64,000 nt of DNA from Sulfobacillus thermotolerans (GTDB lineage: Bacteria; Bacillota; Sulfobacillia; Sulfobacillales; Sulfobacillaceae): the NCBI GenBank assembly GCA_002951815.1, contig CP019454.1:248001-312000 (forward strand). The letters run 5' to 3'. Position numbers and translations under genes: made by a program. Within the stretch, counting starts at the first letter, position 1. Every line of letters begins with the position of its first letter. This document shows positions 36,954 through 60,306 of the stretch, piece after piece. The notes beneath the pieces were generated by a model. The model had not been told where the DNA came from. It made no database searches and saw only the letters and a list, made by a program, of their open reading frames with translations.

Positions 36954-38465
36954 ATGAAAAAAAACGTACTATGGCAAGGAGCCTTTTGGCTGTCCATTGG
37001 GGCTCTGGTCTCTAAAATGATTGGGGCGTTGTACCGAATTTTTTTGCCTCGGGTCTTGGGTGATTACGGGGTCGGTCTCTTTCAAATGGCGTATCCCTTA
37101 TATGCCTTGATTCTCGCTGTATCAGTCAATGGTATTCCGACCGCATTGTCCAAGCAAACCGCCGAAAACCTCTCACGCAACGACTACATGGCCGCCGAAG
37201 TGTTGGCGTCATGGGCACAATTATTTTTAGGTCTTATGGGGATCTTGATGGCTTTAGCCGTAGAGCTTGCGGCGCCGTGGATTGCACGACAAGTTTTTGA
37301 TGAGCCAGCGGCCACGTTATCGATTCGCGCGCTGGCGCCAGCCTTAGCCTTTGTCGCGGTGGAAGCGGGCTTTCGGGGATACTTCCAGGGATATCAAGAA
37401 ATGGCCCCCACGGCCCTGTCGCAAGTGTTCGAACAAATATCGCGCGTGGCCGTGATGTTTCCCTTGGCGCTGTTATGGCTGCCTAAAGGGACCGCTTGGG
37501 CGGCTGCCGGTGCGACGCTTGGGGCTCCTGCTGGAGCGATGGTGGGCATGGTGTTTTTAATGGTGATGCGGTGGCGGCGCCGCTCTTACGCGCTGCGCTG
37601 GCCTGTGCCATGGCAAGCCTTATGGCGCTTGGTTAAAGTGGCTTTACCCATGTCTCTCTCGGGGCTTTTGTTTCCACTGATGTTTTTGGCCGATTCCTTG
37701 TTTGTCCCGCGCCAACTCATGCAAGCCGGGTTGTCGTTAAGGCAGGCCACAGCCCAATTTGGACAATTAAGTGGAGAAGCCATGCCGTTGATTAATTTAA
37801 CGATGGTGGTAGGGGCCGCTTTGGCGGTCTCGTTGGTGCCCGCGATTGCAGAAGCGATGGCACGCAATGATACCGAGGCGGCTGCGGGAAGGGTTCATGT
37901 GGCGATTCGCTTAATCTGGCTTTTGGGCTTACCGATGGCGGGAGGACTCATTGTGTTGGCGCATCCCTTGACGCGGCTTCTCTATGGACATACCGGTGCG
38001 ACCCGTTCGTTGCAATTGTTGGCGATAGGGAGCGCTGTGTTAGCCATTCAACAGGTGCTAGGGTCTTCCCTCCAAGCCAGTGGCCATGGGTGGATTCCTG
38101 TCAAAAACCTTTTAATCGCGGCGGTCATCAAGTTTGTGCTGACATGGCGTCTGACTGGCATCCCGGTATTAGGCATTCAAGGGGCGGCTTTTGGCACCGT
38201 GGCGGCGAGTTTTGGTGCGGCTTGGCTGAATTGGCGCGATTGGCGTCGGCTCGTTGGGGCCCGCCAAAACCCGTGGATGGGGGCTTTATGGCCATTAGTG
38301 GGGACTGTGGTGATGGCGATGGGGGTGCAAACGTGGATGCGGATGGGTTGGACGACAGGGCTCATATGGCCGGTGGCGACGGCTGTGGGCATCGGCGTTG
38401 TCATTTATTTTTTACTCATGGCCATGGTCGGAGAGTTAAATGTGCTAAAAAGCTTGCGGGAATAG
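36954..38465 (+). CDS. spoVB: SpoVB/MurJ-type polysaccharide flippase
   Basis: A MATE/MVF-superfamily membrane protein of 503 residues with about 14 helices, needed for spore cortex in Bacillus (lipid II flipping). LWQGAFWLSIGALVSKMIGALYRIFLPRVLGDYGVGLFQMAYPLY is the diagnostic N-terminal region (residues 5-49), and VNGIPTALSKQTAEN follows. ATG at 36954 has AAGGTGG 6 nt upstream; the GTG at 36945 is too close. It precedes mazG, as yabM-yabN in Bacillus. Confidence 0.9.
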   Translation: MKKNVLWQGAFWLSIGALVSKMIGALYRIFLPRVLGDYGVGLFQMAYPLYALILAVSVNGIPTALSKQTAENLSRNDYMAAEVLASWAQLFLGLMGILMALAVELAAPWIARQVFDEPAATLSIRALAPALAFVAVEAGFRGYFQGYQEMAPTALSQVFEQISRVAVMFPLALLWLPKGTAWAAAGATLGAPAGAMVGMVFLMVMRWRRRSYALRWPVPWQALWRLVKVALPMSLSGLLFPLMFLADSLFVPRQLMQAGLSLRQATAQFGQLSGEAMPLINLTMVVGAALAVSLVPAIAEAMARNDTEAAAGRVHVAIRLIWLLGLPMAGGLIVLAHPLTRLLYGHTGATRSLQLLAIGSAVLAIQQVLGSSLQASGHGWIPVKNLLIAAVIKFVLTWRLTGIPVLGIQGAAFGTVAASFGAAWLNWRDWRRLVGARQNPWMGALWPLVGTVVMAMGVQTWMRMGWTTGLIWPVATAVGIGVVIYFLLMAMVGELNVLKSLRE

Positions 38466-40389: not shown

Positions 40390-40812
40390 GTGAATCCAGC
40401 AGCAGTGATGGCATCTTGGCTCTTAACCGGCATGGCCCTAGGCTTGTTATCAACCGTCTATGGCGCTTTTCGCATCCAATGGCACTGGTGGAAAATCTTT
40501 GGGCACATTATGGACTGGCTGTGGTTTGTCTTGGCGGCGGTTATCATTTTAGCCGTCTATTTGTGGACGGACTGGGGTGTATTCCATGTGTGGAGCTTGC
40601 TCCTTATTGCCATAGGTTATGGCTTATGGGCATGGCTTGCTGCCCCTTGGGTCCTCAAGATCGTGTCGCCGGTGATTTTTTTTCAGGCCCGCGTGGTCTT
40701 TTATCTTACGGCGCCCGTCCGGTTTATAGGACAGCGGCTGACAGCATTAGGGCGACATTGGCGTATTAGACGGTCAAAAAAATTACCTCCCGCTAATCCA
40801 CCCCAAATGTAG
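40390..40812 (+). CDS. yabQ: sporulation membrane protein YabQ
   Basis: A 140-residue membrane protein with about four helices (ASWLLTGMALGLLSTVYGAF, WLWFVLAAVIILAVYLW, WSLLLIAIGYGLWAW and a last one near LKIVSPVIFF), required for cortex formation in B. subtilis. GTG at 40390 has AGGGGGGTG upstream. Family call rests on position after yabP plus topology and the DYxxW-like IMDWLWF loop. Confidence 0.85.
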   Translation: MNPAAVMASWLLTGMALGLLSTVYGAFRIQWHWWKIFGHIMDWLWFVLAAVIILAVYLWTDWGVFHVWSLLLIAIGYGLWAWLAAPWVLKIVSPVIFFQARVVFYLTAPVRFIGQRLTALGRHWRIRRSKKLPPANPPQM

Positions 40813-40866
40813 TGCATGGATGGCCAAGCTCCCTTATAATAGACCTGTCATTGTTTTGTAATAAAT

Positions 40867-40898
40867 CTGTACACAGTTTGTGCACAATCTGTGGATAA
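40867..40898 (+). promoter_or_regulatory. DnaA box with flanking palindromes upstream of HTH gene
   Basis: TGTGGATAA (40890-40898) is the complement of a perfect DnaA box TTATCCACA. Just upstream are the palindrome TTGTGCACAA (40878-40887; 7 of 9 match to a DnaA box) and the near-palindrome CTGTACACAG (40867-40876). A TATAAT at 40835-40840 may be the promoter. This could be autoregulation by the HTH protein, DnaA control, or both. Confidence 0.5.
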
Positions 40899-40912
40899 CT
40901 TGGGGATTTACT

Positions 40913-41152
40913 ATGCAAATAGAAATTCGCGGTATGGAGAAGTTGTCTTTTCGTGAACGCCAAGTCGTGGCCTTGAAAGAAACGGGGGTCTCAAGCGAAG
41001 CTATCGCCAAACGGCTGGGGTTGGCGCCAGCGACGGTTGCGACTTTGTATAACCGCGCCAAAACCAAAGGCTATCAAGTGGTGCTGATTATTGCCGGCGA
41101 CCCGCTCGGGGTGATGGGCGGTGATGAGGAGATGGAGGAGGATGAATTGTAA
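40913..41152 (+). CDS. small HTH (sigma region 4/LuxR-like) protein
   Basis: A 79-residue protein with one helix-turn-helix: MEKLSFRERQVVALKETGVSSEAIAKRLGLAPATVATLYNRAKTKG resembles LuxR/sigma-70 region 4. The C-terminal tail is acidic (GGDEEMEEDEL). The ATG at 40913 is chosen over an upstream ATG (40880) which sits inside the DnaA-box region. It is not part of the B. subtilis order, where yabQ is directly followed by divIC. Its stop overlaps the divIC start (TAATG), so they are coupled. Role unknown; a small regulator of division genes is possible. Confidence 0.75.
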   Translation: MQIEIRGMEKLSFRERQVVALKETGVSSEAIAKRLGLAPATVATLYNRAKTKGYQVVLIIAGDPLGVMGGDEEMEEDEL

Positions 41153-41427
41153 TGGCCGTAGTCCCACATAAGCGGATTAGGTTTCGTTGGAAAAAATTTG
41201 TGACGATTTTTGTTTTAAGTTATTTGATGTTTTGGTCGATCAAATCGGTCCTGCATATTTGGGTGTTGAATCACGATGAACAAGTATTGCGACAGCAAAT
41301 TGCTCAAACCCAAGCGAAAAACAATGTCTTGCGTGCAGACATTAGCCAAATTAAAAATCCCTCCGTCCTAAAAGGCATGATTACAGGCACAGTGCCGATT
41401 CCGAATCCGGAAATAGGCCAACAATAA
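41152..41427 (+). CDS. divIC: septum formation initiator DivIC/FtsB-like
   Basis: Bitopic division protein of 91 residues: a basic cytoplasmic N terminus, one membrane helix (VTIFVLSYLMFWSIKSVLHI, residues 15-34) and an extracytoplasmic coiled coil (HDEQVLRQQIAQTQAKNNVLRADISQIKN). Such proteins form a complex with FtsL/DivIB to activate septal wall synthesis. Position before yabR fits. The start codon overlaps the previous stop. Confidence 0.85.
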   Translation: MAVVPHKRIRFRWKKFVTIFVLSYLMFWSIKSVLHIWVLNHDEQVLRQQIAQTQAKNNVLRADISQIKNPSVLKGMITGTVPIPNPEIGQQ

Positions 41428-41450: not shown

Positions 41451-41479
41451 TTGACACCAGAAGCTCCACACCGTATAAT
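41451..41479 (+). promoter_or_regulatory. yabR promoter
   Basis: TTGACA (41451-41456) and TATAAT (41474-41479), both perfect, with a 17-bp spacer. A strong housekeeping promoter for the S1-domain gene and possibly tRNA-Leu. Confidence 0.9.
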
Positions 41480-44200: not shown

Positions 44201-44583
44201 CTAATTTTTTGAATTGATGGCGCCTGTCTTCTGGTCCGCAGTATTATTTTAATGATAGCTCGTCGCATCGTGCGGTGCTCGCTATAAGGCGAGCTGCATT
44301 ACGCACCACAAGCGACTGGCATCAATGGCTGTGTTGGCCACAGGCACGGCGGACACTCTCATCGGCATCATAGACAGCTAGCTGGCTCCCACCTTCTCCA
44401 TGGGGTTAGCATCGTCCGGTAGTATGGCGTCGCCATGAATGGATCGCCTTATTGCAGCGGTCGGTATTCCTTGCTGTACCATTGCCGGCGCTTTGGGATG
44501 GGGCCGAATGCGTTGCGTTATTTAGGGTTTTAACAGTTTGCTAAAAGTTTACCTATGGTTACCCATTATTGTATAATTTAGGT

Positions 44584-45213
44584 ATGCATAGAAAACTTGT
44601 CGGCATTCGTGAAGCGGCGGAATTTTTAGGTGTGACCCCATCGACGTTACGTCGATGGGAACACGAAGGAAGGTTGTTGCCCGATGAACGCACAGCGGGT
44701 GGGTATCGGCGTTACGACTTGGCCCGGTTGCGACCTGACCAGTTTCACCGACGCAGCCCGCCTCGCAAAACCGTCGCCTATGCCCGCGTATCGAGCCACG
44801 ACCAGAAAGACGATCTGGAGCGGCAAAAGCCAGTGCTGGAGATCTATTGTGCCCGTCAAGGGTGGACCTTTGAGGTCGTGGCGGATCTCGGATCCGGGAT
44901 GAATTATCACAAAAAGGGTCTCAAGCGCCTCTTAAATGACATCCTCGCCGACCGGGTCGGTCGGCTGGTTGTGACCCATAAGGACCGTCTCGTGCGCTTT
45001 GGGGCGGAGCTCGTCTTTGCGATCTGCGAAGCCAAGCAGGTGGAGGTGGTGATTCTCAATCAAGGCGAGGACACGACCTTTGAGGAAGAGCTGGCTCAAG
45101 ACGTCCTCGAAATAATCACCGTGTTTTCGGCTCGGCTCTACGGCAGCCGCTCCCGCAAGAACCAAAAATTGCTCGACGGCGTGAAACACGCCGTGGAGGA
45201 GGCGTCATCATGA
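44584..45213 (+). CDS. tnpA: IS607 transposase TnpA (serine recombinase)
   Basis: A 209-residue protein: an N-terminal MerR-like helix-turn-helix (VGIREAAEFLGVTPSTLRRW, residues 5-24) and a serine-resolvase catalytic domain with AYARVSSHDQKDDLERQ (Ser nucleophile about residue 68) and GRLVVTHKDRLVRFG. These are the two parts of IS607 transposases. ATG at 44584; a -10-like TATAAT overlaps just upstream (44573-44578). It looks intact. Confidence 0.92.
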   Translation: MHRKLVGIREAAEFLGVTPSTLRRWEHEGRLLPDERTAGGYRRYDLARLRPDQFHRRSPPRKTVAYARVSSHDQKDDLERQKPVLEIYCARQGWTFEVVADLGSGMNYHKKGLKRLLNDILADRVGRLVVTHKDRLVRFGAELVFAICEAKQVEVVILNQGEDTTFEEELAQDVLEIITVFSARLYGSRSRKNQKLLDGVKHAVEEASS

Positions 45214-46398
45214 TTCTGGCCCATAAGATTGCGCTCGACCCGAATAACGTTCAAGAGACGTATTTCCGCAAGGCCGCCGGGACGGCCCGTTTCGCGTACA
45301 ATGGGGCCTTGGATCAGTGGCAACAACAGTTCGACGCATGGAAAGCCGATCCTACGTTGCCCAAGCCGACCGAAGCCGCTCTGCGGCGTCAACTCAATGC
45401 ACTCAAGCGCGACGCCTTCCCCTGGATGCTGGAGGTTACCAAGAACGCCCCCCAGATGGCGATTATGCACTTGGGTCAAGCGTTCAAGAATTTCTTTGCG
45501 GGGATCGCCGAGTATCCCACGTTTAAGAAAAAGGGCCGACACGACAGCTTTACGCTCACCAACGACCCATTCACGGTCAAAGGGCAAAAAGTGCATATGC
45601 CCAAATTAGGCTGGGTGCGCATGCACGAACCGTTGCGATTTATCGGCACAGTGGTAGAAGGCACCGTGTCGCGGACCGCTGATCGCTGGTTTTTGAGCGT
45701 CACCGTCGAACTTCCCGATCCCCCCAGTGTCCGCCGCGAACGCCAAGCGGTAGTCGGCGTGGATTTGGGCGTGTCGGCGTTGGCGACGCTCTCGACCGGA
45801 GAGAAGATCGTGGGACCGAAAGCCTATGCGGACGCCTTGGCACAGCTTCGTCGGTTATCGAAACAATTCAGTCGCCAGATGGAAGTCGCCAAAGTCCGCG
45901 CCGGGCTTCAGCCCGGGCCAGCCCACCCCGAAAGGGATGCCCATGCCCTTGTCCCAGAATATGCGAAAGACGCAGCGGCGCATGGCCCGACTCCATGCGC
46001 GGATTGCGAATATCCGGACGGATGCGTTACACCAACTGACCACCGATCTCGTGCAGCGCTTCGATGTCATGGCCATCGAGGACCTGAACGTCGCCGGGAT
46101 GCTCAAAAATCATCCTCGCGCCCGGGCGATTGCTGATATGGGCTTTGGGGAATTCCGTCGGCAACTCGCATACAAAGCGGCCCAATGCGGGAAAACGGTG
46201 GTCACCGTGAGCCGTTGGTATCCGAGCAGCAAAACGTGTTCCGCGTGTGGATACAAAATGCCGAAAATGCCGCTCGCTATGCGGGAGTGGACGTGCCCAG
46301 AATGTCACACACACCACGACCGCGACATCAATGCGGCGATCAATTTGCGAACCGTGGCCGAGAGTTCGGTGAGGAGCTCCTCACCCGTGTCTGCCTGA
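45210..46398 (+). pseudogene. tnpB: IS607 TnpB RNA-guided nuclease, frameshifted
   Basis: TnpB is the OrfB/Cas12-ancestor nuclease. The first frame (45210-46136) gives the N-terminal helical part and the first RuvC aspartate in VVGVDLGVSALATLS. The homology then continues in the +1 frame to 46398, with VMAIEDLNVAGMLKN (Glu), the zinc ribbon CSACGY...CPEC and HDRDINAAINL (last Asp). Dropping one G from the GGG at 45915-45917 joins the frames as AGLQPGQPTPKGMPMPLS, a normal TnpB linker. All catalytic residues are otherwise present, so inactivation is recent, or a sequencing error. It starts inside tnpA (ATGA). Confidence 0.88.
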
Positions 46399-49118: not shown

Positions 49119-50840
49119 TCAATGCGAAATCCACCAATGACTGGGAAAGATCACGCCCCCAATCGGGTTGTAGTCTGTCAATGTTCCGTGTAAATTCTTG
49201 GCATGCACCACCAACGCGGGAAACTCTGGCAAGTAAATCACTGCGGGTAACTGCTTAGCCGCATAGTCTTCATAGGCATACATCCGCTGAATAGCTTGTT
49301 TGGTTGTTCCGGGAGCATAGGTGGCGTCAATCAGATGATTCATGGTTCGGCTGGAATAGCTACCGGAGTTTTCGGCAGCTCCTGTCTTAAACAGCACACC
49401 CCCAGAAGGATAGCCGGAAGCGTATCCCCATCCGCCATTCCAGTTCAAGACTTGCCATTGAGAGGCGTTGCTAGGACTATAGCTGACCACCGTATTGAAC
49501 TGCTGATATTCGATATGGCATACGATGCCTTCCTGAGCCCACCCTTGCTGTAGGATTTGGTCGATATGGTCGTAGCTGGTGCTGCCGGACGCGGCAAACA
49601 TCGTGAACTCCAACTTGATACCATGTTTAGTCATCACGCCGTTGACTTCGTGCCACCCCGCTGCTTCTAGAATCTTTTTGCCACGCGCTGGATTATAGGC
49701 ATACGGGTCATGCGCTAATGCCGGATCGACAAACATGTTCTGGGGCTTGGGCGCCAAGGTCGTGTCATCAATCACACCGTAGCCGTGATAGACGGCGTCA
49801 ATGATCCCCGGCTGATTGACACCTAATTGAAGCGCCTGGCGGACAGGCAGTTCATCAAAAGCCTTTCCAACGCCGTCTGGGGCTTTGGGACTCATATTGA
49901 GTTGGATGTAGTTAAATCCTAGCGAATATAAAGGAGTCAGTACGTCATTGGTCAATTCATTGCGTACACCCAACAAAGCGGCAGGAAGATAGCCGTAGTT
50001 GACGGTGCCTTCTTTGAGTGCAGTAAATTCCGCCGATGAGGACGTTTCGTATTGAAAGATGACCTTTTTGACATAGGACTTATGGCCATCGTAATGGGGA
50101 TTGGGAACATAAGCCCAATAACTATTGGTCGCTGAGGAGTGAAATTGGTAGGGACCATCCACGACTTGGTAAACCGCGTTATTGGGGGCATTAGACACGT
50201 TTTGGATGAACTGCATTTCCTTGCTCATATTATTTGGATACTTATCCCACACGGACTCAGGCACTGGGTAGATTTGACCAATTCCGTTGCGAACAAACCA
50301 TTGTTGGCTGCTTGGATGCTGCAGGGTAAATTGTATGGTGTAAGGACCTGTGGCTACGACGCTTTTCCATAGGGTAGGTACACCGCCCGATCCTGACCCG
50401 GCAAAAGACCAAGCGTAATTGACATTGCTTTGGCTGCCGGCATTCATAATCTGCCATGTGAAGACCACATCTTTGGCGGTCACCGGATGCCCATTGGACC
50501 AATGCCACTTTTTGTTCAATTTCACCGTGTACACTGTGCCCTGGCGATTCCAGGTGACAGAGGATGCCAGGCAGTGACGGGGATCAAACTGGTCTTTGCT
50601 GTTAAAGTACAGCAAAGGCTCGTAGCTCATATCATCAATTTCCGAGTTAATCGTTGTGTCCGCGGTCAAGGACAATTCAGGAAAAAACCAGTTAGGTGAC
50701 GTTTGCGCGGCCAGCGCAATGACGACGGTGCCGCCTGATTGCGGAGATGCGGTGGTAGGGGTCGAGTCCGACCCGGATCCGCAACCAGCGGCAACCAATG
50801 ATAGAATGCTGAGAGCCCCCAGCATAGTCCATTTGCGCAT
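49119..50840 (-). CDS. peptide ABC transporter substrate-binding lipoprotein
   Basis: An extracytoplasmic solute-binding protein of family 5 (OppA/DppA type), 573 residues. A signal peptide with lipobox LVAAGC (Cys about residue 20) is followed by WNRQGTVYTVKLNKKWHWSNGHPVTAKDVVFTWQ, the family signature (residues about 97-130), and LPVRQALQLGVNQPGII. ATG at 50840 has AAAGGAGGAGG upstream. No permease or ATPase genes are next to it, so it may use a transporter encoded elsewhere, or act as a sensor. Peptide binding is likely; other ligands (nickel, sugars) are possible in this family. Confidence 0.88.
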   Translation of the reverse strand: MRKWTMLGALSILSLVAAGCGSGSDSTPTTASPQSGGTVVIALAAQTSPNWFFPELSLTADTTINSEIDDMSYEPLLYFNSKDQFDPRHCLASSVTWNRQGTVYTVKLNKKWHWSNGHPVTAKDVVFTWQIMNAGSQSNVNYAWSFAGSGSGGVPTLWKSVVATGPYTIQFTLQHPSSQQWFVRNGIGQIYPVPESVWDKYPNNMSKEMQFIQNVSNAPNNAVYQVVDGPYQFHSSATNSYWAYVPNPHYDGHKSYVKKVIFQYETSSSAEFTALKEGTVNYGYLPAALLGVRNELTNDVLTPLYSLGFNYIQLNMSPKAPDGVGKAFDELPVRQALQLGVNQPGIIDAVYHGYGVIDDTTLAPKPQNMFVDPALAHDPYAYNPARGKKILEAAGWHEVNGVMTKHGIKLEFTMFAASGSTSYDHIDQILQQGWAQEGIVCHIEYQQFNTVVSYSPSNASQWQVLNWNGGWGYASGYPSGGVLFKTGAAENSGSYSSRTMNHLIDATYAPGTTKQAIQRMYAYEDYAAKQLPAVIYLPEFPALVVHAKNLHGTLTDYNPIGGVIFPSHWWISH

Positions 50841-51253
50841 AGATCCTCCTCCTTTCCTTCGGGAGCTCTTGTGAGAACTCTCTGTGGATTGTCGGTAATT
50901 CGCTAAAGCACTAAAGAATTCCTGCTAAACGGGAATTTTTGTTGCATTTTTCCGGAAATTGTCTGCTGCGTACGGAGCAACCGTCGTACTAGTGCAACGG
51001 ATAACAGTGATTACGGGCTATTAATGCCGGGTTAAGCTCGGCGGTGAGTTTCTCCTGCCTCGGTTGCTGTCTGGGCAAAGACTTCTTACTTTGGGCCTGT
51101 TGTGGTTTATGGCATTGAGGAATTTCTCATATTGGTTTTGTATAAGGTTATCAACGTTGAGAAATGGGATTGGTGGTAATTTTTTATGGGCCAACAAGAA
51201 TGAAGACAAACCGTTTACAATAAGTAGAGAACACAACAAGGGGGACACCACGC
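50841..51253. other. divergent intergenic region
   Basis: About 410 bp between the divergent lipoprotein and PBP2 genes. It holds the ribosome-binding sites of both, a six-base inverted repeat AATTCC/GGAATT (50917-50922 and 50932-50937) and A+T-rich DNA (51110-51220) with a TACAAT about 35 bp before PBP2. I see no gene in it. Confidence 0.45.
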
Positions 51254-53200
51254 ATGGTCAACCGTCAGACCCGTAACCGCAGTATCGTCTTGATGGCGTT
51301 GGTTACGGCCGCATTTGGAGTGGTCGGAACGCGGTTTTGGTATCTGCAAGTCAAAGAGGGCGCCCATTATCAGACGTTGGCGCAAGCTGATACGTTACGC
51401 AAGCTACCTATTCCAGCGCCTCGAGGTAATATTGTGACTGCGGACGGCAAGGTAGTCGCCACGTCTCGGCCGTCCTGGACACTGTACTACCTCGCCAACG
51501 GACAACCAATGCCGTCTGCGGAACTCAACTTGCTGAGCCAAGAGTTGGGGCAATCCCCGGCGTCTCTCAAAAAGGTCATTGCCCAACAGCTATCTCAGTT
51601 GCCAGCTTATGATCCTCTGGTCATTACCTCTGGACTGACGGCGGCGGAAATGACCAAGATCGAAGAGAATATCAATAACTTGCCGAACTTACGCATCCAG
51701 CCGATTGCGGTGCGATATTATCCCTACGGCAATCTCATGGGGAATATTATTGGCTATACGTCACGTATCAATGCGGCGGAGTATCAGCAGTTAAAAAATA
51801 AAGGGTTTTCGATGACGTCCATTGTGGGCGCGGCCGGGCTTGAACAAGAATACAATCAATATTTGCATGGGCATGCGGGAGGCGAGTACGCCGAGGTTAA
51901 CCGTCAAGGTCAACTGCAAAAGCTGTTAAGCAAATCGGGACCGGTTCCTGGGGATACCCTGCATTTGACTATTAACTGGCGACTTGAGGAGACAGCGCAA
52001 AACTCCTTAGCGTTTGTCATGAAGGCGATGCAAAATTCACGCGTGCCATTTTCCCATAGTACGGGCGCAGTGCAAGGCGCGGTGATCGCTATGAACCCCA
52101 ATAACGGGGACATTTTGGCGATGGCGAGTTTGCCCACGTATAACCCGAATAAGCTGATTCCGACTGATCCCAAGGAATACAGCAGCTATTATGCGAAGTT
52201 AATGTCCAGTCCGCTCGTGAAAGAGGGCATTAGCCCTTTTATCAATGAGGCCATTTCGGGATGGTTTGCTCCAGGTTCCGTCTTCAAACCGATTATGGCG
52301 ATTGCAGCCTTAGGATCAGGCGTGGTGACCCCGACGACGGAAATTTTTGATCCCGGCTATTTCCCGAAAGACCATGCGTTTGGCAACTGGTATGCGCCAG
52401 GCTTTGGATGGTTAAATATCGAGCAAGCGCTAGGACTGTCAGACGACGTATTTTTCTACTATATGGGCTATGATATGGGCATTCAGACTATGGACCACTG
52501 GATGCGGACATTTTTGCTGAATAAGCCCACAGGGATTGACTTGCCGGATGAAATAACGAGCCAGATTCCGACACCGAAGCGGTTGGCGGCATCAGGACAG
52601 GGACCTTGGACGTGGGGATGGAACTTAAACACCGTCATCGGCCAGGGGATTGCCCGCTATACGCTGATTGCTTTAGCCCGAGCCGACTCGGCTATTGCCA
52701 ATGGCGGGACATTGTATTGGCCGCATTTGGTCAGTGAAATTACGACTCCTACCGGGAAAGTCGTTAAGACCTTTAAACCCGTTGTGCAGGGCAAGGTGAA
52801 TGTTCCCTATTCAGACTTTCATACCGTTCATGTTGGCATGGAGATGTCAGCCCAAGATCCTGATATCGCTAAAGGAGTGTCCGGAACCGGGTATGGGGCG
52901 CTTGCGGGGCTTCCCGTGCCCGTCGCTTCCAAAACCGGAACGGCGCAGGTGGTGGGCCAGTCCAACAACTATAACGCCTTTTTCCTCACGTATGGTCCCA
53001 TGCCTCACCCAACCATTTTGATTTTAGTGTATATCCGGGAAGGCAACTGGGGAGCCGATTCGGGGTTTGTTGCACGCGCCATTTATGATCAGTACTTCAA
53101 GATTCAAGATCCCAAAGCCCAGCCGCTCTTCCAGAGTGTCTATGGGTTAAATTGGAAGTGGCCGTTTGGGTATCAAAAGCCCCCGGCGCCTAAATATTAA
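51254..53200 (+). CDS. penicillin-binding protein 2 (transpeptidase, PBP2/MrdA-like)
   Basis: Bitopic peptidoglycan transpeptidase of 648 residues. One membrane helix (IVLMALVTAAFGVVGTRFWYLQ, residues 10-31), a dimerisation/pedestal region (LPIPAPRGNIVTADGKVVA) and a penicillin-binding domain with FAPGSVFKPIMA (SxxK serine about residue 341), LSDDVFFYYMG (SxN replaced by SxD, as often seen in elongation PBP2s) and VASKTGTAQVV (KTGT). ATG at 51254 has AGGGGGAC upstream. No mre or rodA genes are adjacent. It could act in elongation or in spore wall synthesis (SpoVD-like); the SxD motif favours the PBP2 type. Confidence 0.88.
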   Translation: MVNRQTRNRSIVLMALVTAAFGVVGTRFWYLQVKEGAHYQTLAQADTLRKLPIPAPRGNIVTADGKVVATSRPSWTLYYLANGQPMPSAELNLLSQELGQSPASLKKVIAQQLSQLPAYDPLVITSGLTAAEMTKIEENINNLPNLRIQPIAVRYYPYGNLMGNIIGYTSRINAAEYQQLKNKGFSMTSIVGAAGLEQEYNQYLHGHAGGEYAEVNRQGQLQKLLSKSGPVPGDTLHLTINWRLEETAQNSLAFVMKAMQNSRVPFSHSTGAVQGAVIAMNPNNGDILAMASLPTYNPNKLIPTDPKEYSSYYAKLMSSPLVKEGISPFINEAISGWFAPGSVFKPIMAIAALGSGVVTPTTEIFDPGYFPKDHAFGNWYAPGFGWLNIEQALGLSDDVFFYYMGYDMGIQTMDHWMRTFLLNKPTGIDLPDEITSQIPTPKRLAASGQGPWTWGWNLNTVIGQGIARYTLIALARADSAIANGGTLYWPHLVSEITTPTGKVVKTFKPVVQGKVNVPYSDFHTVHVGMEMSAQDPDIAKGVSGTGYGALAGLPVPVASKTGTAQVVGQSNNYNAFFLTYGPMPHPTILILVYIREGNWGADSGFVARAIYDQYFKIQDPKAQPLFQSVYGLNWKWPFGYQKPPAPKY

Positions 53201-53296
53201 TGGAGTGTCTCCGTACTGTATGATTGATAGGCCATTGTGCCTCCCTGAATGAATATGAACGCGCCCGATTTCGGTCCGGTTGTTCATCACGTGGCC

Positions 53297-53779
53297 TCAT
53301 TTTTCTTTGCGTGCGGGGTATTGATAGAAGGATGTGATAACTGGCACTGGGCTCCCAAGAACGGGGTAGGCTTTCAGGATGGTTGCCGTACCTTCGTTCC
53401 CCAGCCATACGCGACCCACTAGTGTTGCATTGAAAGTCGTGTGCTTGAACGACACCCATGTATCACCGATTTTATAGCTTACGGGATCGTTCCAGTTCCA
53501 AAAATACTGGGAACTGGACTCTCCGCTTAATATACCGTGAGTTCGGGTAGGCTGCCCATGAGGATTATAATCTGCGATTCCAGTCAAGGCTGCCCAGGCG
53601 ACGAGACCGATCAGCGCGACCTTTGATACCATGGAGGGCACTCTTTTGCTCGTGGTCTGAGACCGAGTTCTCCAGTACCGCGAACGCAACTCCTGTCGCG
53701 TCGGCAACAGCAGTGCTACGATCATAATTGCCGCGGCCCCGTAAACGATAAAGGCGTAGCGGTAAGGCATCACAATCAT
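53297..53779 (-). CDS. small membrane protein, unknown
   Basis: A 160-residue frame with two hydrophobic helices (YAFIVYGAAAIMIVALLLP, about residues 7-25; VSKVALIGLVAWAALTGIA, about 50-68) separated by a basic loop, and a C-terminal beta-rich outside part. No family recognised. ATG at 53779, with GTG 6 nt later as alternative, near GGGGGCAGG. It is opposite and just downstream of PBP2. Real-gene status is likely but not certain. Confidence 0.55.
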   Translation of the reverse strand: MIVMPYRYAFIVYGAAAIMIVALLLPTRQELRSRYWRTRSQTTSKRVPSMVSKVALIGLVAWAALTGIADYNPHGQPTRTHGILSGESSSQYFWNWNDPVSYKIGDTWVSFKHTTFNATLVGRVWLGNEGTATILKAYPVLGSPVPVITSFYQYPARKEK

Positions 53780-54137
53780 ATCCTGCCCCCATTTCGATTA
53801 CGATAGAACGCTTAGTAATGACGAGTCCGCTCAATCCTAGAATCCGTGATCCTTCCTACCTCAACTATGAGGGCCAGTTCCTGCCGCAGTTGCCGTTATA
53901 TGATTGACAAGGATTTTCCTAGGCGGTCATTACCTGGGAAGGTATGTTGCCGGATACCTTCCTAAGGTAATGAATCATGAACTCTCGTCAATCTGCGATG
54001 TCTTGGAAACGCCCTAAAATGATATCGTCGCGCGGCGTGTGGGGCGTTGGGATTTACGCAGCGCGGGCTTCTTCCCAAGGTTATTCACATGTTTTGGACG
54101 GTATCGAGGATTGGTTTGTTAACATATCCTTCTCGCC
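53780..54137. other. gene-free gap
   Basis: No supported gene. A plus-strand frame beginning at 53977 has no ribosome-binding site and runs into the antisense of the thioesterase, so it is not called. Confidence 0.4.
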
Positions 54138-54581
54138 TCATGATTCGGGCAACAAGGGGGTTATCTTCGTACGGAAGGAATCTGGCCACGAGTGGCTTTT
54201 TTGGGTGAGAGCATCCACAAGAACGACCGTGCTATCTTGATTAGCAATGAGCGTGCCCGATTCGCTATCCACCACGAGGTGATATAGACCAAGCGAGGAC
54301 CGTCCAATGGCACTGACTCCCGTATAGATGCGCAAGGTTTGACGATAAAAGGCAGGGGCTAAGTATGTAATGGATTGGTGGGCAAGAACCATCGAGAACT
54401 GCGACGACCACCAATCAAACCCTTCGTCCATCAGCGCATCAAAAAATTCTGTACGGGCTTGCTCAAAGTATATGGCATAAGAGACTTGACTGACGTGGCG
54501 GTTAGCATCTGTTTCACAAAACCGCACGCGTATTATCGTTTCATGCACAAAACGTTTGCCGCCAATCACCAGATCATTCAT
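54138..54581 (-). CDS. hotdog-fold acyl-CoA thioesterase (YbgC/4HBT-like)
   Basis: A 147-residue thioesterase. VRFCETDANRHVSQVSYAIYFEQARTEFFDAL (residues 19-50) matches the 4HBT signature (R-x-x-E/D-T-D-x-x-x-H-x-x-x-Y-x-x-Y-x-E). The usual VGH/MGHVNN aspartate-loop is kept as TDANRHVS. Hydrolyses an acyl-CoA; substrate unknown. It follows the HAD gene on the same strand by 45 nt and may be cotranscribed. Ribosome-binding site weak. Confidence 0.8.
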   Translation of the reverse strand: MNDLVIGGKRFVHETIIRVRFCETDANRHVSQVSYAIYFEQARTEFFDALMDEGFDWWSSQFSMVLAHQSITYLAPAFYRQTLRIYTGVSAIGRSSLGLYHLVVDSESGTLIANQDSTVVLVDALTQKSHSWPDSFRTKITPLLPES

Positions 54582-54626
54582 CGCATGTATGGGGAAGAGT
54601 GACCCGTTCTTCCCGCTCCTCCCTTT

Positions 54627-55319
54627 TTAATTTGAATTATTGGCGTGAATCCCACTCCATGATTCTAGCAAATTGGGAAGGGCTTGGAGCGAGGAGATGG
54701 TGAAATCCGGGCGGAGTACGGATGGCGAAAGGGGTTCCCATCCTCCGAGATCGCCTGACCGACGGCTTAGGTGAATACTCGTAATATGGGCACGCCGTGC
54801 GCCCAGAACATCCTGAGCCACCTTATCGCCGATATGGCAATCAATGGTAGGAGCCTGGGCAAAAATTCGGGGATCCGGTTTAACCCATCCTGATTCCGCT
54901 CCAATAATGCGGGAGAAGAGAACGTCCCAACCCAGCGTCGCAATATATGGCTGTTGATGACAAGACCAGCCGTTGGTGATTAGCACGGCTAAAAGAGGCT
55001 GAGACTGGAGCCACAGCAAGAAGGGCCAAGCGTCGGGGAAAACCAGCGCTAAAATTTGGCGCCGATCAATGGGGACAGGAGGCGGCAATGTGCGTCCTAA
55101 GGCCTTTTGGGCGATACTTTCCCAATCATAGGCGGCCGATTTACGGCCTTGGCGCAGCCGACGGATACTTTCCTTCTCCATCAAGGACCACAATTCTGCG
55201 ACCGATGTCTGCTCCTTGCGCGCCAACTGGTCTAGCCATGGGTGGAGATGAAGTCGCCAGTAGGGATTTTTCAGCAGCGTGCCGTCAATATCTACGCTTA
55301 TCATCCGCAAGCGATGCAC
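54627..55319 (-). CDS. HAD-superfamily hydrolase
   Basis: A 230-residue phosphatase-like protein. ISVDIDGTLLKNP (motif I, residues 7-19; nucleophile and acid Asp), ITNGW (motif II), GWVKPDPRIF (motif III Lys) and HIGDKVAQDVLGARRAHI (motif IV) are in order, with an alpha-helical C1 cap. Substrate unknown; similar to phosphoglycolate/pyrimidine phosphatases. GTG at 55319 has AAGGAG upstream. It is divergent from lysC. Confidence 0.85.
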   Translation of the reverse strand: MHRLRMISVDIDGTLLKNPYWRLHLHPWLDQLARKEQTSVAELWSLMEKESIRRLRQGRKSAAYDWESIAQKALGRTLPPPVPIDRRQILALVFPDAWPFLLWLQSQPLLAVLITNGWSCHQQPYIATLGWDVLFSRIIGAESGWVKPDPRIFAQAPTIDCHIGDKVAQDVLGARRAHITSIHLSRRSGDLGGWEPLSPSVLRPDFTISSLQALPNLLESWSGIHANNSN

Positions 55320-55418
55320 TGTCTGCTCCTTCCATGTGAAAAAATATGCAAAGTCATGCGATGTCAGGCTCTAACTTTGTTATTATAGACGAAAAGTTTG
55401 TAAAGGGTGACGAATGAC

Positions 55419-56648
55419 ATGCTTATTGTGCAAAAATACGGTGGCAGCTCCTTGCGCAGCGCTGAACATTTGCTCAACGTGGCGCGCAAAGTGAAACAGG
55501 CGGTGGACCAAGGGTATCAAGTGGTGGTGGTGGTATCCGCGATGGGGGACAGCACAGACGCTTTAGTCAGTTTGGCAGAACAAATGAGTGCGGTACCTTC
55601 TGCCCGTGAAATGGACCAATTGCTCTCGACAGGAGAAACGCAGTCGAGTGCGCTGATGGCGATGGCACTCGAACACATGGGGATTCCGGCTAAGTCGTTT
55701 TCTGGACGGCTAGCAGGCATCGTGACCACATATGACTACGGCAAAGCCCGCATTGAACACGTTGACCCCAAAGAGTTACGCAATGCCTTAGCGGTAGGCC
55801 TAACACCCGTGGTCGCGGGCTTTCAAGGGATTACGGAGGCGGGAGACATTTCTACGCTCGGGCGCGGGGGCTCAGATTTGACCGCCATTGCGGTGGCCAA
55901 TGCGTTAGGCGCCGACCGGTGTGAAATTTATTCCGATGTAGCGGGAGTCTACACGGCGGATCCACGTATCGTACCATCCGCAACGCCCCTGGGAACGTTA
56001 AGCTATGATGAAATGTTGGAGCTCGCCAGTCAAGGCGCGCAAGTATTGCAAACGCAAGCCGTGGAATTTGCCAAGGGCCAGCAGGTGCCCATTTATGCGC
56101 GGTCGACGTTCAGTGATGACCCCGGCACTGTGATAGCGGAAGCGGACAACATGGAGAAACCGGCTGTCACCGCGGTGGCGTTAAACCGCCACATTGCGAA
56201 AATCGGTTTAATCGGCGTGCCGGATGCACCCGGCGTGGCGGCCTTGCTCTTTGGGCAATTGGCTGAGCATGGGGTGAATGTAGAACTCATCATTCAAGCT
56301 GTCTCCCATAATCAGCTCAATGACATTGCCTTTACGATTGAAGAGCAAGATGTTAGGCGTGCTGAGCCTATTGTAGAGGACTGCCTCCGTCAACTAGGAG
56401 GTCAGTCGCTTGTCATTGACACCGATGTGGCCAAGGTCTCCGCCATTGGCTCAGGAATGCTAGGACGGCCTGGAGTTGCCGCGCGTATCTTTCAAGCCCT
56501 GGCTAGCCAAGGAATTAATATTCAAATGATCGGAACATCTGAAATTAAGATTTCATGCATCATTGCCCGTGAACATGCCGAACAAGCGCTTGAGGCTATT
56601 CATACCGCTTTTGGATTAGGGGCTTCCAGTGAAATGGTAGAAGAGTAA
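55419..56648 (+). CDS. lysC: aspartate kinase
   Basis: First step of the aspartate pathway (Lys, Thr, Met, diaminopimelate), ATP-dependent. 409 residues: VQKYGGSSLRSAEHL (residues 4-18), STGETQSSALMA, FQGITEAGDISTLGRGGSDLTA and DRCEIYSDVAGVYTADPRIVP (kinase), then two ACT domains (LIGVPDAPGVAALLFGQLAE, AIGSGMLGRPGVAARIFQALA), the allosteric part. ATG at 55419 is preferred over GTG 55407 because AAAGGG lies about 11 nt upstream. It has a shared convergent terminator. Diaminopimelate feeds peptidoglycan and spore dipicolinate. Confidence 0.95.
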   Translation: MLIVQKYGGSSLRSAEHLLNVARKVKQAVDQGYQVVVVVSAMGDSTDALVSLAEQMSAVPSAREMDQLLSTGETQSSALMAMALEHMGIPAKSFSGRLAGIVTTYDYGKARIEHVDPKELRNALAVGLTPVVAGFQGITEAGDISTLGRGGSDLTAIAVANALGADRCEIYSDVAGVYTADPRIVPSATPLGTLSYDEMLELASQGAQVLQTQAVEFAKGQQVPIYARSTFSDDPGTVIAEADNMEKPAVTAVALNRHIAKIGLIGVPDAPGVAALLFGQLAEHGVNVELIIQAVSHNQLNDIAFTIEEQDVRRAEPIVEDCLRQLGGQSLVIDTDVAKVSAIGSGMLGRPGVAARIFQALASQGINIQMIGTSEIKISCIIAREHAEQALEAIHTAFGLGASSEMVEE

Positions 56649-56696
56649 AGAGGAGCCTAGGCTGCCCCGTAGGGGGCGCCTGGGCTCCTCTTTATT
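56647..56696. terminator. bidirectional terminator, lysC / DUF1641 gene
   Basis: A long stem (56647-56662 with 56678-56693, one G-U), an inner CCCC/GGGG extension, and TTTATTT on the plus side with AAAG at the base for the minus side. It ends both convergent genes. Confidence 0.8.
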
Positions 56697-57243
56697 TGTG
56701 TTCGTGTTTTTGCTGCGGAAGTGCTCGGTGTCGGAAGAGAGGCGCGAGCTTGCCCGCCATAACCCCCATCATCCGCAATCCTGTTTGCACTTCTTTGTCT
56801 TGCATCACGCGCATTAACCCCAAAAAGCCGCCCAAATGCTCGCTCTCCTGGGCCGATTGGCGCGCAGCGTCCTTAATCGAAGCTTTTAAGACTTCCGCAA
56901 AGGATGTTTCTTGAGCCATATCCAATAGCGAAACGAAGAACTGGTTGAGGTTGTCTTGCGTCAACATCGTGGTCGCAAGGCCAAGCAGCGTGCCAATTTG
57001 GGTGATAATGCCTTGCTCGTGTAGACTCGCTAAAACCTCCATCGTTTCACGTAGGGCGGGCATAGCCCCATCTGGCAGGAAGGTTGCTCCTTGAGCGAGA
57101 TATTCCGTCGCTACGGCACCGGCAGGCCCTGCTAAAAGCTTGTTGACGACGGTGACGAGATCTCCGAGCTGTGCCAAACCCTGCCATTGGTCCTGAGTTA
57201 GGTTGGGGATGTCTTTGGCTTGTAAGGTGGCTGTATCACTCAT
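56692..57243 (-). CDS. DUF1641 protein, SQR companion
   Basis: A 183-residue, mostly alpha-helical soluble protein. LVTVVNKLLAGPAGAVATEYL, LHEQGIITQIGTLLGLATTML and HLGGFLGLMRVMQDKEVQTGLRMM match the DUF1641 repeat style, a family seen next to sulfide:quinone oxidoreductases and to formate dehydrogenase (YrhD). Role unknown; a membrane-quinone or assembly partner has been guessed. It is 4 nt downstream of SQR-like 1, so the two are one operon. ATG at 57243 has GAAGGGG upstream. Confidence 0.8.
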   Translation of the reverse strand: MSDTATLQAKDIPNLTQDQWQGLAQLGDLVTVVNKLLAGPAGAVATEYLAQGATFLPDGAMPALRETMEVLASLHEQGIITQIGTLLGLATTMLTQDNLNQFFVSLLDMAQETSFAEVLKASIKDAARQSAQESEHLGGFLGLMRVMQDKEVQTGLRMMGVMAGKLAPLFRHRALPQQKHEHK

Positions 57244-57247
57244 TATA

Positions 57248-58516
57248 TCACCCCTTCGTCAGCATTTCGGTCAAAAAGTCGGCCACCGGAATCCCCCAGT
57301 CAGGCACTTTACCCTTGGTCCGGAAAAACATTTCTTTATACTGCAGTTTCAGCAAAAAAGGTACGTGGCCCATACGGAAGACTTCCCGGTCTCCACCGTA
57401 CCAGGTGTTGGAACTGATATAAAACGCTTGATTGTGGCCCATATCGCCTATACAGTCCACGATTGGACGCATTGGTTCGTCAGCTTTACGGGCATTCATC
57501 ATGCCCAGGTCCTTGGCAATTTGATGCGCGACAACGTCCGCTCCCATATGAGCGAGGATCCCCAGTTTCGGTACAGTGACCGCAGCAGCGTCGCCACAGG
57601 CAAAGACATTATGATATTTGGGGTTGCGCATGGTCATATCCGTTAAAACAAAGCCAACGTCATCGGAAATGGGCAAGTCTTTCAAAAAGGCATGGGGCAC
57701 CCAGTCAGGAAAAACAATTTTCAGCTCCGCTTCGATACTGGGACCATGGGCAAACTCAATGCCGTCTTGGGTAATACGGCTAATATCATGGGTATTGTTG
57801 ACATAGTGAAAGCCCATGGTTCCGGCTTTGGACAACAAGGCATGGACAATGCCTTGGCCGGCGTCCTCCGCAATCCATTCGGCCGGAGTAAAGACAGTCA
57901 CTTTATCAGGCCCACCGAGATTATGAGATTCAAGCCAAGCCCCCATACTGAGCATCACTTCGACGGGCGGACCTTCACAAGCGGCTTCGGCGGTGGGCAC
58001 CAAATCACGGGTTTTGGTGCCCTGGTGAAAGCGGGCGGATCCGACGGCGATGGGGCCTCCTTGATACTCATGATAGAGATAATGGCGCAGACGGTTGCCG
58101 TAGTATGTATCACTGACGGTATGACCATATTCGGCAAACCCCTCGATTTTGTCATAGGCAAGCCTGGCACCCACCGCAATGACTAAGTAGTCATAGTGGA
58201 TTTTTGCTACCGTGGCCCCTAAACGCTCTACGGGGAGATATTCCACCCATTGACCATCCACGTCTAAATTTTGGACATCACCCAGAATAAAGTCCAAATG
58301 ATCTTCCTTCATCGCAGGAATTAATGGCATATGCATGGAATACATCGGGTTGCGATCTTCTAAGACTTCGATCCCGATATTCGGTACAAATAACAAGTAG
58401 GATTTGCGGTCAATGACCGTAATATCAACGGAATCGCGGGCAAACTCCCGGATTTTTTGGGCTGCGCCGAGTCCGGCAAAGTTCGAACCCAGCACAACAA
58501 CGTGCGGTTTTCCCAA
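57248..58516 (-). CDS. sulfide:quinone oxidoreductase-like flavoprotein 1
   Basis: An FAD-dependent NAD(P)/quinone oxidoreductase of 422 residues, membrane-associated. Rossmann loop VVVLGSNFAGLGAAQKIREF (residues 7-26), a second dinucleotide segment YDYLVIAVGARLAY, and NVFACGDAAAVTVPKLG at the FAD site. EAACEGPPVEVM corresponds to the position of the redox cysteine C160 of classical SQR, and IVDCIGDMG to C356; the position of C128 has no Cys (GHTVSDTYY). TTG at 58516 has AGGAGGTGG 7 nt upstream. It would move electrons from sulfide to quinone. Cotranscribed with the DUF1641 gene. Confidence 0.82.
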   Translation of the reverse strand: MGKPHVVVLGSNFAGLGAAQKIREFARDSVDITVIDRKSYLLFVPNIGIEVLEDRNPMYSMHMPLIPAMKEDHLDFILGDVQNLDVDGQWVEYLPVERLGATVAKIHYDYLVIAVGARLAYDKIEGFAEYGHTVSDTYYGNRLRHYLYHEYQGGPIAVGSARFHQGTKTRDLVPTAEAACEGPPVEVMLSMGAWLESHNLGGPDKVTVFTPAEWIAEDAGQGIVHALLSKAGTMGFHYVNNTHDISRITQDGIEFAHGPSIEAELKIVFPDWVPHAFLKDLPISDDVGFVLTDMTMRNPKYHNVFACGDAAAVTVPKLGILAHMGADVVAHQIAKDLGMMNARKADEPMRPIVDCIGDMGHNQAFYISSNTWYGGDREVFRMGHVPFLLKLQYKEMFFRTKGKVPDWGIPVADFLTEMLTKG

Positions 58517-58664
58517 AGATAAGCCACCTCCTATCAATACGCTACTAACCCTAATCTGTCCAAAACCGACGGGATCGAATCCTAGCAATTCATGGACTAG
58601 GCAAAGCCTGCATTATTCTTTCAGAGACTGTATTTAATGGCGTATGATGAAAGAGATCATAAGC

Positions 58665-59114
58665 ATGCGTATTGAGAAAGAAGGAATAGATACGGCAACA
58701 GTTTATACGATCGTTTTAGTAGCCCACGTCACCTGTGCCATCACCGGGTTTTTGGGCGCTACAGGCCTTGTCGTCGCGGCATATCGTCAGCGTAAAACGG
58801 GGGAATTGCCGGCGAAGTTTTGGCAATATCAGGCGTACGTACAAATCATTACGGTGCTTTTAGGGCTCTTTGGGATGACCTTGTTTTTAATGGGGGGCCG
58901 TCCGAAAGTGATCTTTCATATTCTCTATGGCCTCATGGCGTTGTTAACGGTCCTCGTGGAGCGAGGTTTGGGTCCAGGCAGGCAATTGCGTGAAGTGCTG
59001 GCGCATGATTATGGCCACGGCAAATTTAATGAAGCGTGGTGGTTTTTTGGCTTAAACTTGTTTCTCTGGGCCATGTATGGCCGGGGCCTCACCACCGGGT
59101 TTTGGGGTTTCTAA
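58665..59114 (+). CDS. four-helix membrane protein of unknown function
   Basis: A 149-residue protein with four hydrophobic helices (TIVLVAHVTCAITGFLGATG, VQIITVLLGLFGMTLFLMGG, IFHILYGLMALLTVLVERG, WFFGLNLFLWAMYG). Histidines in the first and third helices and near HDYGHGKFNEAWW could be haem or metal ligands, but this is only a suggestion. The start is uncertain: ATG 58644 or 58665. It is divergent from SQR-like 1 and convergent with SQR-like 2, suggesting a link with quinone chemistry. A terminator follows. Confidence 0.65.
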   Translation: MRIEKEGIDTATVYTIVLVAHVTCAITGFLGATGLVVAAYRQRKTGELPAKFWQYQAYVQIITVLLGLFGMTLFLMGGRPKVIFHILYGLMALLTVLVERGLGPGRQLREVLAHDYGHGKFNEAWWFFGLNLFLWAMYGRGLTTGFWGF

Positions 59115-59118
59115 GGAG

Positions 59119-59153
59119 CGAGCCGCCACGGACACCCAGGGCGGCTCGGTTTT
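59119..59153 (+). terminator. terminator between convergent genes
   Basis: CGAGCCGCC/GGCGGCTCG (59119-59127 with 59140-59148), then GTTTTC. Good rho-independent form on the plus strand. Confidence 0.8.
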
Positions 59154-59160
59154 CGGGCAG

Positions 59161-60306
59161 CTATTTTGGCATGGACAAGCCCCATTTTTTGAACACGGGA
59201 GTGTGCACAAACGTGTAAGCCAAGGCGGCTTTCGCTAGAGGCCATTGTCGGCCGATTTTAAATTCTTGATGTTCTTGTGACCACAACGAACGCCGCACAA
59301 ATAAACCTTCACCCGTACCAAGATCTAGCACACAACTCATTTCATGGTCATAAAGCTTATGGGGTTTACCAGTTTCTAGCAAATCTTGGGTGAGGTTGTA
59401 CACCGCCGTCTCGGCTTGCAGCATCGCGGTGTGGCCTTGTTTGGGCCCTTCAAAGGCCACAGCGCTACCCGCGACATAAATATCAGGATAGCGCACGCTT
59501 TGCATATCCTTACCGGTTTCTAGCCAATCGCGGGGGTTATCTCCGGCCAAGGATTTTTGGGCATCCTCTCCGCGAAAGGGAGGCGTAATAATAGTTAAAA
59601 CGGAAGGCAGTTCTTCCCCATTACTTAAGATCACCCGGTCGGCTTTGACTTCCTTGATTTGAACGGGACCATGCCGCGTGATGTGACGTTCAGCAAAAAC
59701 TTTGGTTAAAAATTCTGTGGCTTCTGGTCCTGCAGGGGCCCAGAGTTTGGGTAAAGGGTCAACAAAATCGATGGACCCCGCCACTTTGTGGTCTTTCATC
59801 CATTCTTCGAGCTCTAAGGCCACCTCAAAGGCGGGTCCGCCGGTTTGCACGTTTTGGGCCCATCCCACCACAGTCGGTCCGCCGTGATAGCGGGTGAGAG
59901 CGTCTTTAAGGGCCAAAGCACCGTCCGGTGTGCACACGTTATAGCCGTGTTCGCGCAAGCCCGGTACTTCGTCATAGGCGAGTTTTTCCCCTAAGGCCAC
60001 GATGAGTTTGTCGTACTTGATAGGCCCTTGATCCGTCATAAGGGTTTGCGCTTCGGGGTTGATGGAGGTGATGGCGGCTTCGACAAAATGAATACGAGTC
60101 CGTTTATAGATTGTACGCAAATCAAAAGTAATATCTTTTAGCGACTTTTTGCCAAAGGCTAATAAGACTAAAGATGGGCGATAGACAAAGGTGGCATCAC
60201 GGGCTACCACTGTGATGCGGTGACCGCTGTGCCGCAATAACCGTTTGAGCTTAATGGCGGCAGTGAGTCCGGCAAAGCCACTCCCTGCAATGACAACATC
60301 AGCCAT
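59161..60306 (-). CDS. sulfide:quinone oxidoreductase-like flavoprotein 2
   Basis: A 381-residue FAD protein. MADVVIAGSGFAGLTAAIKLKRL (residues 1-23) is the Rossmann fold; YDKLIVALGEKLAYDEVPG follows, and PDIYVAGSAVAFEGPKQGHTA holds the FAD site near residue 294. YNVCTPDGAL matches the C128 position of SQR and MSCVLDLGTGEG the C356 position, while the C160 position has QTGGPAFEV without Cys. The Cys pattern is thus complementary to that of SQR-like 1. ATG at 60306 has AGGAGG. Single gene; sulfide or another sulfur donor may be the substrate. Confidence 0.8.
   Translation of the reverse strand: MADVVIAGSGFAGLTAAIKLKRLLRHSGHRITVVARDATFVYRPSLVLLAFGKKSLKDITFDLRTIYKRTRIHFVEAAITSINPEAQTLMTDQGPIKYDKLIVALGEKLAYDEVPGLREHGYNVCTPDGALALKDALTRYHGGPTVVGWAQNVQTGGPAFEVALELEEWMKDHKVAGSIDFVDPLPKLWAPAGPEATEFLTKVFAERHITRHGPVQIKEVKADRVILSNGEELPSVLTIITPPFRGEDAQKSLAGDNPRDWLETGKDMQSVRYPDIYVAGSAVAFEGPKQGHTAMLQAETAVYNLTQDLLETGKPHKLYDHEMSCVLDLGTGEGLFVRRSLWSQEHQEFKIGRQWPLAKAALAYTFVHTPVFKKWGLSMPK

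Follow-up and report, generated by a model that had tools for sequence, protein, structure and literature searches.

The HTH-divIC locus

We analysed a stretch of 64,000 nucleotides, hereafter the window, which corresponds to bases 248001-312000 of the complete 3.3-Mb genome of Sulfobacillus thermotolerans. The window carries a block of genes in the order HU-S4-yabP-yabQ-HTH-divIC-S1, followed by a tRNA-Leu, where HTH stands for a gene encoding a small helix-turn-helix protein. The features of the locus are listed below with their positions in the window.

40390..40812, plus strand: yabQ, upstream neighbour of the HTH gene (TIGR02893, 1.4e-11, above cut-off)
40835..40840, plus strand: -10 element TATAAT of the HTH-divIC promoter
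40845..40866, plus strand: distal degenerate 11-bp units CTGTCATTGTT and TTGTAATAAAT, in phase with the array
40867..40877, plus strand: array unit -3, CTGTACACAGT (TTGTACACA in relatives), the first palindrome of the preliminary description
40878..40888, plus strand: array unit -2, TTGTGCACAAT, which contains the perfect palindrome TTGTGCACAA
40878..40898, plus strand: 21-bp dyad of a forward box, 3 bp and a reverse box (TTGTGCACA ATC TGTGGATAA)
40890..40898, minus strand: array unit -1, the perfect DnaA box TTATCCACA, the only perfect copy in the window
40913..41152, plus strand: HTH gene, 79 aa, sigma-region-4/LuxR-like, beta strands at both termini, acidic tail
41152..41427, plus strand: divIC-like septum formation gene (DivIC Pfam match of 8e-4, below cut-off, and position in the block)
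41451..41479, plus strand: sigma-A-type promoter TTGACA-17-TATAAT, 12/12 consensus match, downstream of divIC

The stop codon of the HTH gene and the start codon of divIC share base 41152 (TAATG), an overlap already reported in the preliminary description of this sequence. Because of this shared base and of the perfect promoter located past divIC, the two genes look like a single unit, and they presumably form one transcription unit. The downstream promoter probably serves the S1 gene, in which case HTH-divIC would remain a separate unit. The start of the HTH reading frame is conserved at ATG 40913; GTG 40880 was rejected as a start since the relatives begin at the equivalent of 40913. In all relatives of the family (L001-L028), as well as in L032, a TATAAT element occupies the same position, 74-84 nt from the start codon. 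The -35 element is weak in this genome (GTGCAT, 17 bp spacing) and reads GTGACA in several relatives. In two loci of genus g6 (L019 and L021), the spacer of the promoter holds an extra perfect DnaA box, located ~91 nt ahead of the HTH start. A terminator-like match on the minus strand (40887-40867) was discarded as a by-product of the array repeats. Elsewhere in the window, ORF translations indicate an IS607-like element (44569-46398) composed of a MerR-type serine recombinase and then a TnpB-like frame split over two overlapping ORFs.

A conserved small HTH protein

The preliminary description had presented the HTH gene as new to the division block, a view that the relatives contradict: the gene is present in 55 of 61 of them and the order yabQ-HTH-divIC is found phylum-wide. 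The protein has matches with E <1e-20 in about 100 of 249 genomes sampled from the phylum, and 354 stretches of our genome collection encode a relative, including records of Sulfobacillus, Thermaerobacter, Fermentithermobacillus, Desulfotomaculum, Pelotomaculum and Desulforudis. The gene is ancient in this part of the phylum, where it is found in single copy between yabQ and divIC.

An alignment of 29 HTH sequences contains 26 invariant columns. The best Pfam matches of the protein are Sigma70_r4_2 (6.9e-8, 32.5 vs a cut-off of 25.7 bits) and GerE (1.3e-6, 28.4 vs 23.5 bits), which stand for sigma region 4 and LuxR, respectively; the 25 Pfam matches listed do not include a MerR model. The structure model (pLDDT 87.6) presents a beta-HHH-beta arrangement with a disordered acidic tail. 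It is closest to sigma region 4 and to LuxR/NarL/RcsB-type domains, at a modest Z of ~6-7, and a Foldseek search with the model yielded no match with E below 0.001, so that the comparison gives the fold class only. We ruled out that the protein is a sigma-70 factor: it has the region-4 part only, without region 2, and scores 19.3 vs 42.9 bits against TIGR02937. The protein is a small and deeply conserved putative regulator, and NCBIfam contains no dedicated model for it.

An array of 11-bp repeats in the HTH leader

In the leader of the HTH gene, the stretch that separates the -10 element from the start codon contains strictly 11-bp head-to-tail repeats (TTGTNNTAA..TTGTNCACA..TTGTNCACA..TGTGGATAA). 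The perfect DnaA box and the two related palindromes had been described as separate elements. The box is indeed present, and both palindromes can be recognized as TGT-NN-ACA: TTGTGCACAA (40878-40887) is perfect and CTGTACACAG (40867-40876, CTGT-AC-ACAG) is imperfect. These three elements are, however, the last three units of one direct-repeat array, which begins upstream of the palindromes.

From the start codon outwards, the consensus of the units is TTGTGGATAAC (the reverse box), TTGT[AG]CACA, TTGT[AC]CACAG and then TTGTANTAA. Unit -1 is a perfect box in 29 of 56 chains and has at most one mismatch in 40 of 56. Unit -2 is a one-mismatch DnaA box read in either direction; in other lineages it is a perfect box, TTATGCACA or TTATTCACA, and the difference between these two falls on the position not fixed by the DnaA consensus. 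In 30 of 56 chains, unit -3 differs from forward TTATNCACA by a single mismatch. The forward units are nearly always TTGTNCACA, with 71 one-mismatch G matches vs 4 perfect forward boxes. Units of the TTGTANTAA type occupy the position of the distal units in relatives; they are not DnaA-like, yet keep the 11-bp phase.

Conservation of the array

A lone DnaA box is ordinary in this genome: the genome-wide count that had been suggested earlier gave 93 copies of TTATNCACA in 3.3 Mb, or about one perfect copy per 35 kb, vs 60 copies of the reversed pattern. In the window itself, nine boxes with at most one mismatch were found vs 12 expected. This frequency is the one point in favour of a perfect box that arose by chance in an otherwise ordinary promoter leader, without a function of its own, an explanation that we consider exceedingly improbable and that is ruled out by conservation: the conservation of the array across the phylum and its 11-bp phase far exceed what is seen in shuffled sequences. 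The counts below were made on 61 representative loci that share <90% protein identity and were chosen by identity rather than on a tree, so they do not stand for independent events; in addition, the counting came after the array pattern had been recognized in the data. A chain score of at least 3 was obtained for 51 of the 61 loci vs 0 of 1,220 shuffles. At least two TTRTNCACA boxes were found in 43 of the 61 leaders vs 1 of 647 neighbouring 100-mers. A perfect TTATNCACA lies within 90 nt in 38 of the 61 representatives vs 0.24 in shuffles and, when one mismatch is allowed, in 56 of 61 vs ~5. Finally, pairs of TGT in the leaders are found at exactly 11, 22 and 33 bp in 160, 112 and 65 cases, vs ~4 at other distances.

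Loss of the box in relatives that keep the HTH-divIC pair had been put forward as the observation that would refute the proposed coupling. For the most part this refutation fails, as most of these relatives keep the box; four loci (L050, L054, L055 and L201) lack a recognizable DnaA box. Two of them, L050 and L054, keep the 11-bp TGT repeats without it. In four other leaders (L135, L187, G172 and G136), TTATCCACA replaces a TTGT unit.

Comparison with dnaA leaders

The most common pair of boxes in the HTH leaders is forward-3 bp-reverse (forward box 12 bp before reverse box; 34 of 61). The same pair is also the most common upstream of dnaA in the same class, with 13 of 30 loci that include several close relatives. 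For example, the sequence upstream of dnaA in one genome (G050) is TTATGCACAACCTGTGGATAA, to be compared with TTGTACACAACCTGTGGATAA in the HTH leader L011; in the source genome, its own dnaA leader reads TTATCAACAAACTGTGGATAA and the HTH leader TTGTGCACAATCTGTGGATAA. The array resembles the DnaA-box clusters of oriC and dnaA leaders in its 9-mer boxes of both affinities and its forward-3 bp-reverse dyad, and the dnaA leaders of these genomes likewise present boxes before the ribosome-binding site. In contrast to these clusters, the array has a rigid 11-bp phase, four to six units and forward units of TTGTNCACA, and it lies at HTH-divIC, not at the origin. Upstream of dnaA, most exact boxes are TTATNCACA and the spacing is less rigid than in the HTH leaders.

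The dnaA gene of the source genome is on the minus strand at 54 kb (L063, genome bases 50000-60000). Its leader contains the forward-3 bp-reverse pair and then TGTG units before the ribosome-binding site, an arrangement kept in many relatives. One genome (G041; L069 and L094) presents two dnaA genes that look full-length, which may be an artefact as its contamination reaches 7%.

Genomes without the HTH gene

We examined 69 genomes in which yabP is present and a strong HTH match is absent. In 68 of them, no box pair was detected between yabP and S1 (where S1 was not found, the search ran to the end of the fetched stretch). The array therefore follows the HTH gene rather than divIC, and the idea that it is a feature of divIC independent of HTH is unsupported. 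The exception is G094, which has lost the HTH gene and keeps TTATCCACA...TGTGGATAA before divIC with a separation of 23 bp, which matches its sister G136, where the HTH gene is present. A second sister, G172, has distal TTGTA units that cannot be seen in G094. This suggests that the array goes together with the HTH gene but that its boxes can persist after the gene is lost. G094 is a single case, in a family and order that comprise three genomes only, and its boxes may be a relic. The HTH gene of family f38 appears to be decaying or divergent, with weak or absent boxes; two loci of this family (L240 and L241, genomes G075 and G194) present only the C-terminal part or a degenerate copy of the HTH gene between yabP and S1.

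Candidate ligands of the array

The comparison establishes the array, its position and its conservation, as well as its tie to the HTH gene and the geometry that it has in common with the dnaA region. Judging from these patterns in the sequences, it is probable (roughly 60%) that the array is DnaA-responsive, with DnaA as its main ligand, and controls the HTH-divIC unit. Control of HTH-divIC by DnaA had been proposed from the single locus, and the boxes kept in most relatives with the gene pair and their dnaA-like geometry are consistent with it. The strong reverse box beside the ribosome-binding site would anchor DnaA, and the two or three weaker upstream boxes, in an 11-bp phase made of a 9-mer and a 2-bp gap, would let DnaA oligomerise back to the transcription start. 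The level of DnaA would then repress or time the transcription of HTH and divIC, and the HTH protein would probably be a co-regulator of the unit. Under this reading DnaA is predicted to bind the array and to repress rather than activate HTH-divIC, and division may be affected via the array.

Several known systems resemble this proposal. In Thermotoga, same-direction boxes cooperate best in DnaA binding at a 2-bp gap (PMC10316083). The motif TTGTCCACA is the DnaA box of the actinobacteria Streptomyces and Mycobacterium, and in E. coli low-affinity sites extend from high-affinity boxes to form anchored arrays (PMC4285127). The same-direction weak sites that extend from the strong anchor boxes R1 and R4 at E. 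coli oriC are like the array described here, but they serve to open the origin, whereas our array is located in a gene leader (PMC4285127). In Bacillus subtilis, DnaA binds the promoter of ftsL, and the promoters of this division gene and of sda, which encodes a small regulatory protein, possess DnaA sites as proposed here (PMC8203912). These are other genes, however, and the element that we describe accompanies a small HTH protein at a single conserved locus in each genome, across much of the phylum.

Binding by DnaA would account for the exact 9-mer, the tolerated positions, the common dyad and the boxes of G094. It fits less well with the forward TTGTNCACA units, unlike the TTATNCACA that prevails upstream of dnaA, with a spacing more rigid than at dnaA, with the distal TTGTANTAA units that are in phase without being DnaA-like and with the TGT repeats that lack a DnaA box in L050 and L054. 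The array also tracks the HTH gene, and G094 is one genome and may represent a relic. Alternatively, it is possible, if rather unlikely, that the array is the operator of the HTH protein itself and resembles DnaA boxes only incidentally or in part. The region-4-like domain would read TTGT with one monomer per 11 bp, forming a head-to-tail polymer that ensures tight autorepression of HTH-divIC. Sigma region 4 reads TTG-containing -35 elements, which would suit such an operator. So would the TGT repeats at exactly 11, 22 and 33 bp, including the units of L050 and L054 that hold this phase without boxes and the in-phase distal units, as would the fact that the genomes have essentially no such array outside the HTH locus and that no box pair was found in 68 of the 69 HTH-less genomes. 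There is also a precedent in BldC of Streptomyces, an unrelated small HTH protein that binds direct repeats of variable number head to tail and serves as the model for this autorepressor (PMC5859096). BldC is MerR-like, whereas our protein, judging from its listed Pfam matches, is sigma-region-4/LuxR-like. An operator of the HTH protein would nevertheless leave unexplained the perfect 9-mer at unit -1 in half of the chains, a dyad identical to that upstream of dnaA, the replacement of a TTGT unit by TTATCCACA in four leaders and the boxes kept in G094 after the loss of the gene.

The two proteins might also share the array: DnaA would occupy the proximal boxes, and the HTH protein would either bind the distal TTGTANTAA units or compete with DnaA for the same units. 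The type of unit does differ by position, TTGTANTAA being distal and the DnaA-like units proximal, and the HTH-less G094 keeps the proximal boxes without the distal TTGTA units of G172; this last evidence comes from one genome, and we consider such sharing quite improbable. A further, unlikely scenario is that the HTH protein, as a phylum-wide regulator, recognizes DNA of the DnaA-box type: it would occupy its own array and also compete with DnaA, or modulate it, at the boxes upstream of dnaA. AdpA provides a precedent as a transcription regulator with an inhibitory action on initiation at oriC (PMC3411110). If true, the HTH protein and DnaA would constitute a circuit joining replication initiation to the supply of DivIC.

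If DnaA is the main ligand, the array may act as a switch that ties chromosome replication to cell division. The conserved array before HTH-divIC constitutes a concrete and testable candidate for the way in which replication initiation is matched to division. We found no description of this element in the listed titles and abstracts of papers on divIC with yabQ, helix-turn-helix or DnaA boxes.

Other box sites in the source genome

A genome-wide search with the array pattern did not reveal a second array, and a genome-wide HTH regulon defined by this pattern was rejected; the other matches were single pairs, at oriC or near background. The only other match of the one-mismatch pair pattern in the source genome is an 11-bp box pair, TTATCCACA-CA-TTGTGCACA, at genome bases 37803-37822 (L064:1304-1323); a minus-strand ORF that resembles an FAD-dependent oxidoreductase starts right downstream of it. 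In addition, TTATCCACA occurs twice as a perfect box in direct orientation, 22 bp apart, at genome bases 3232425-3232455.
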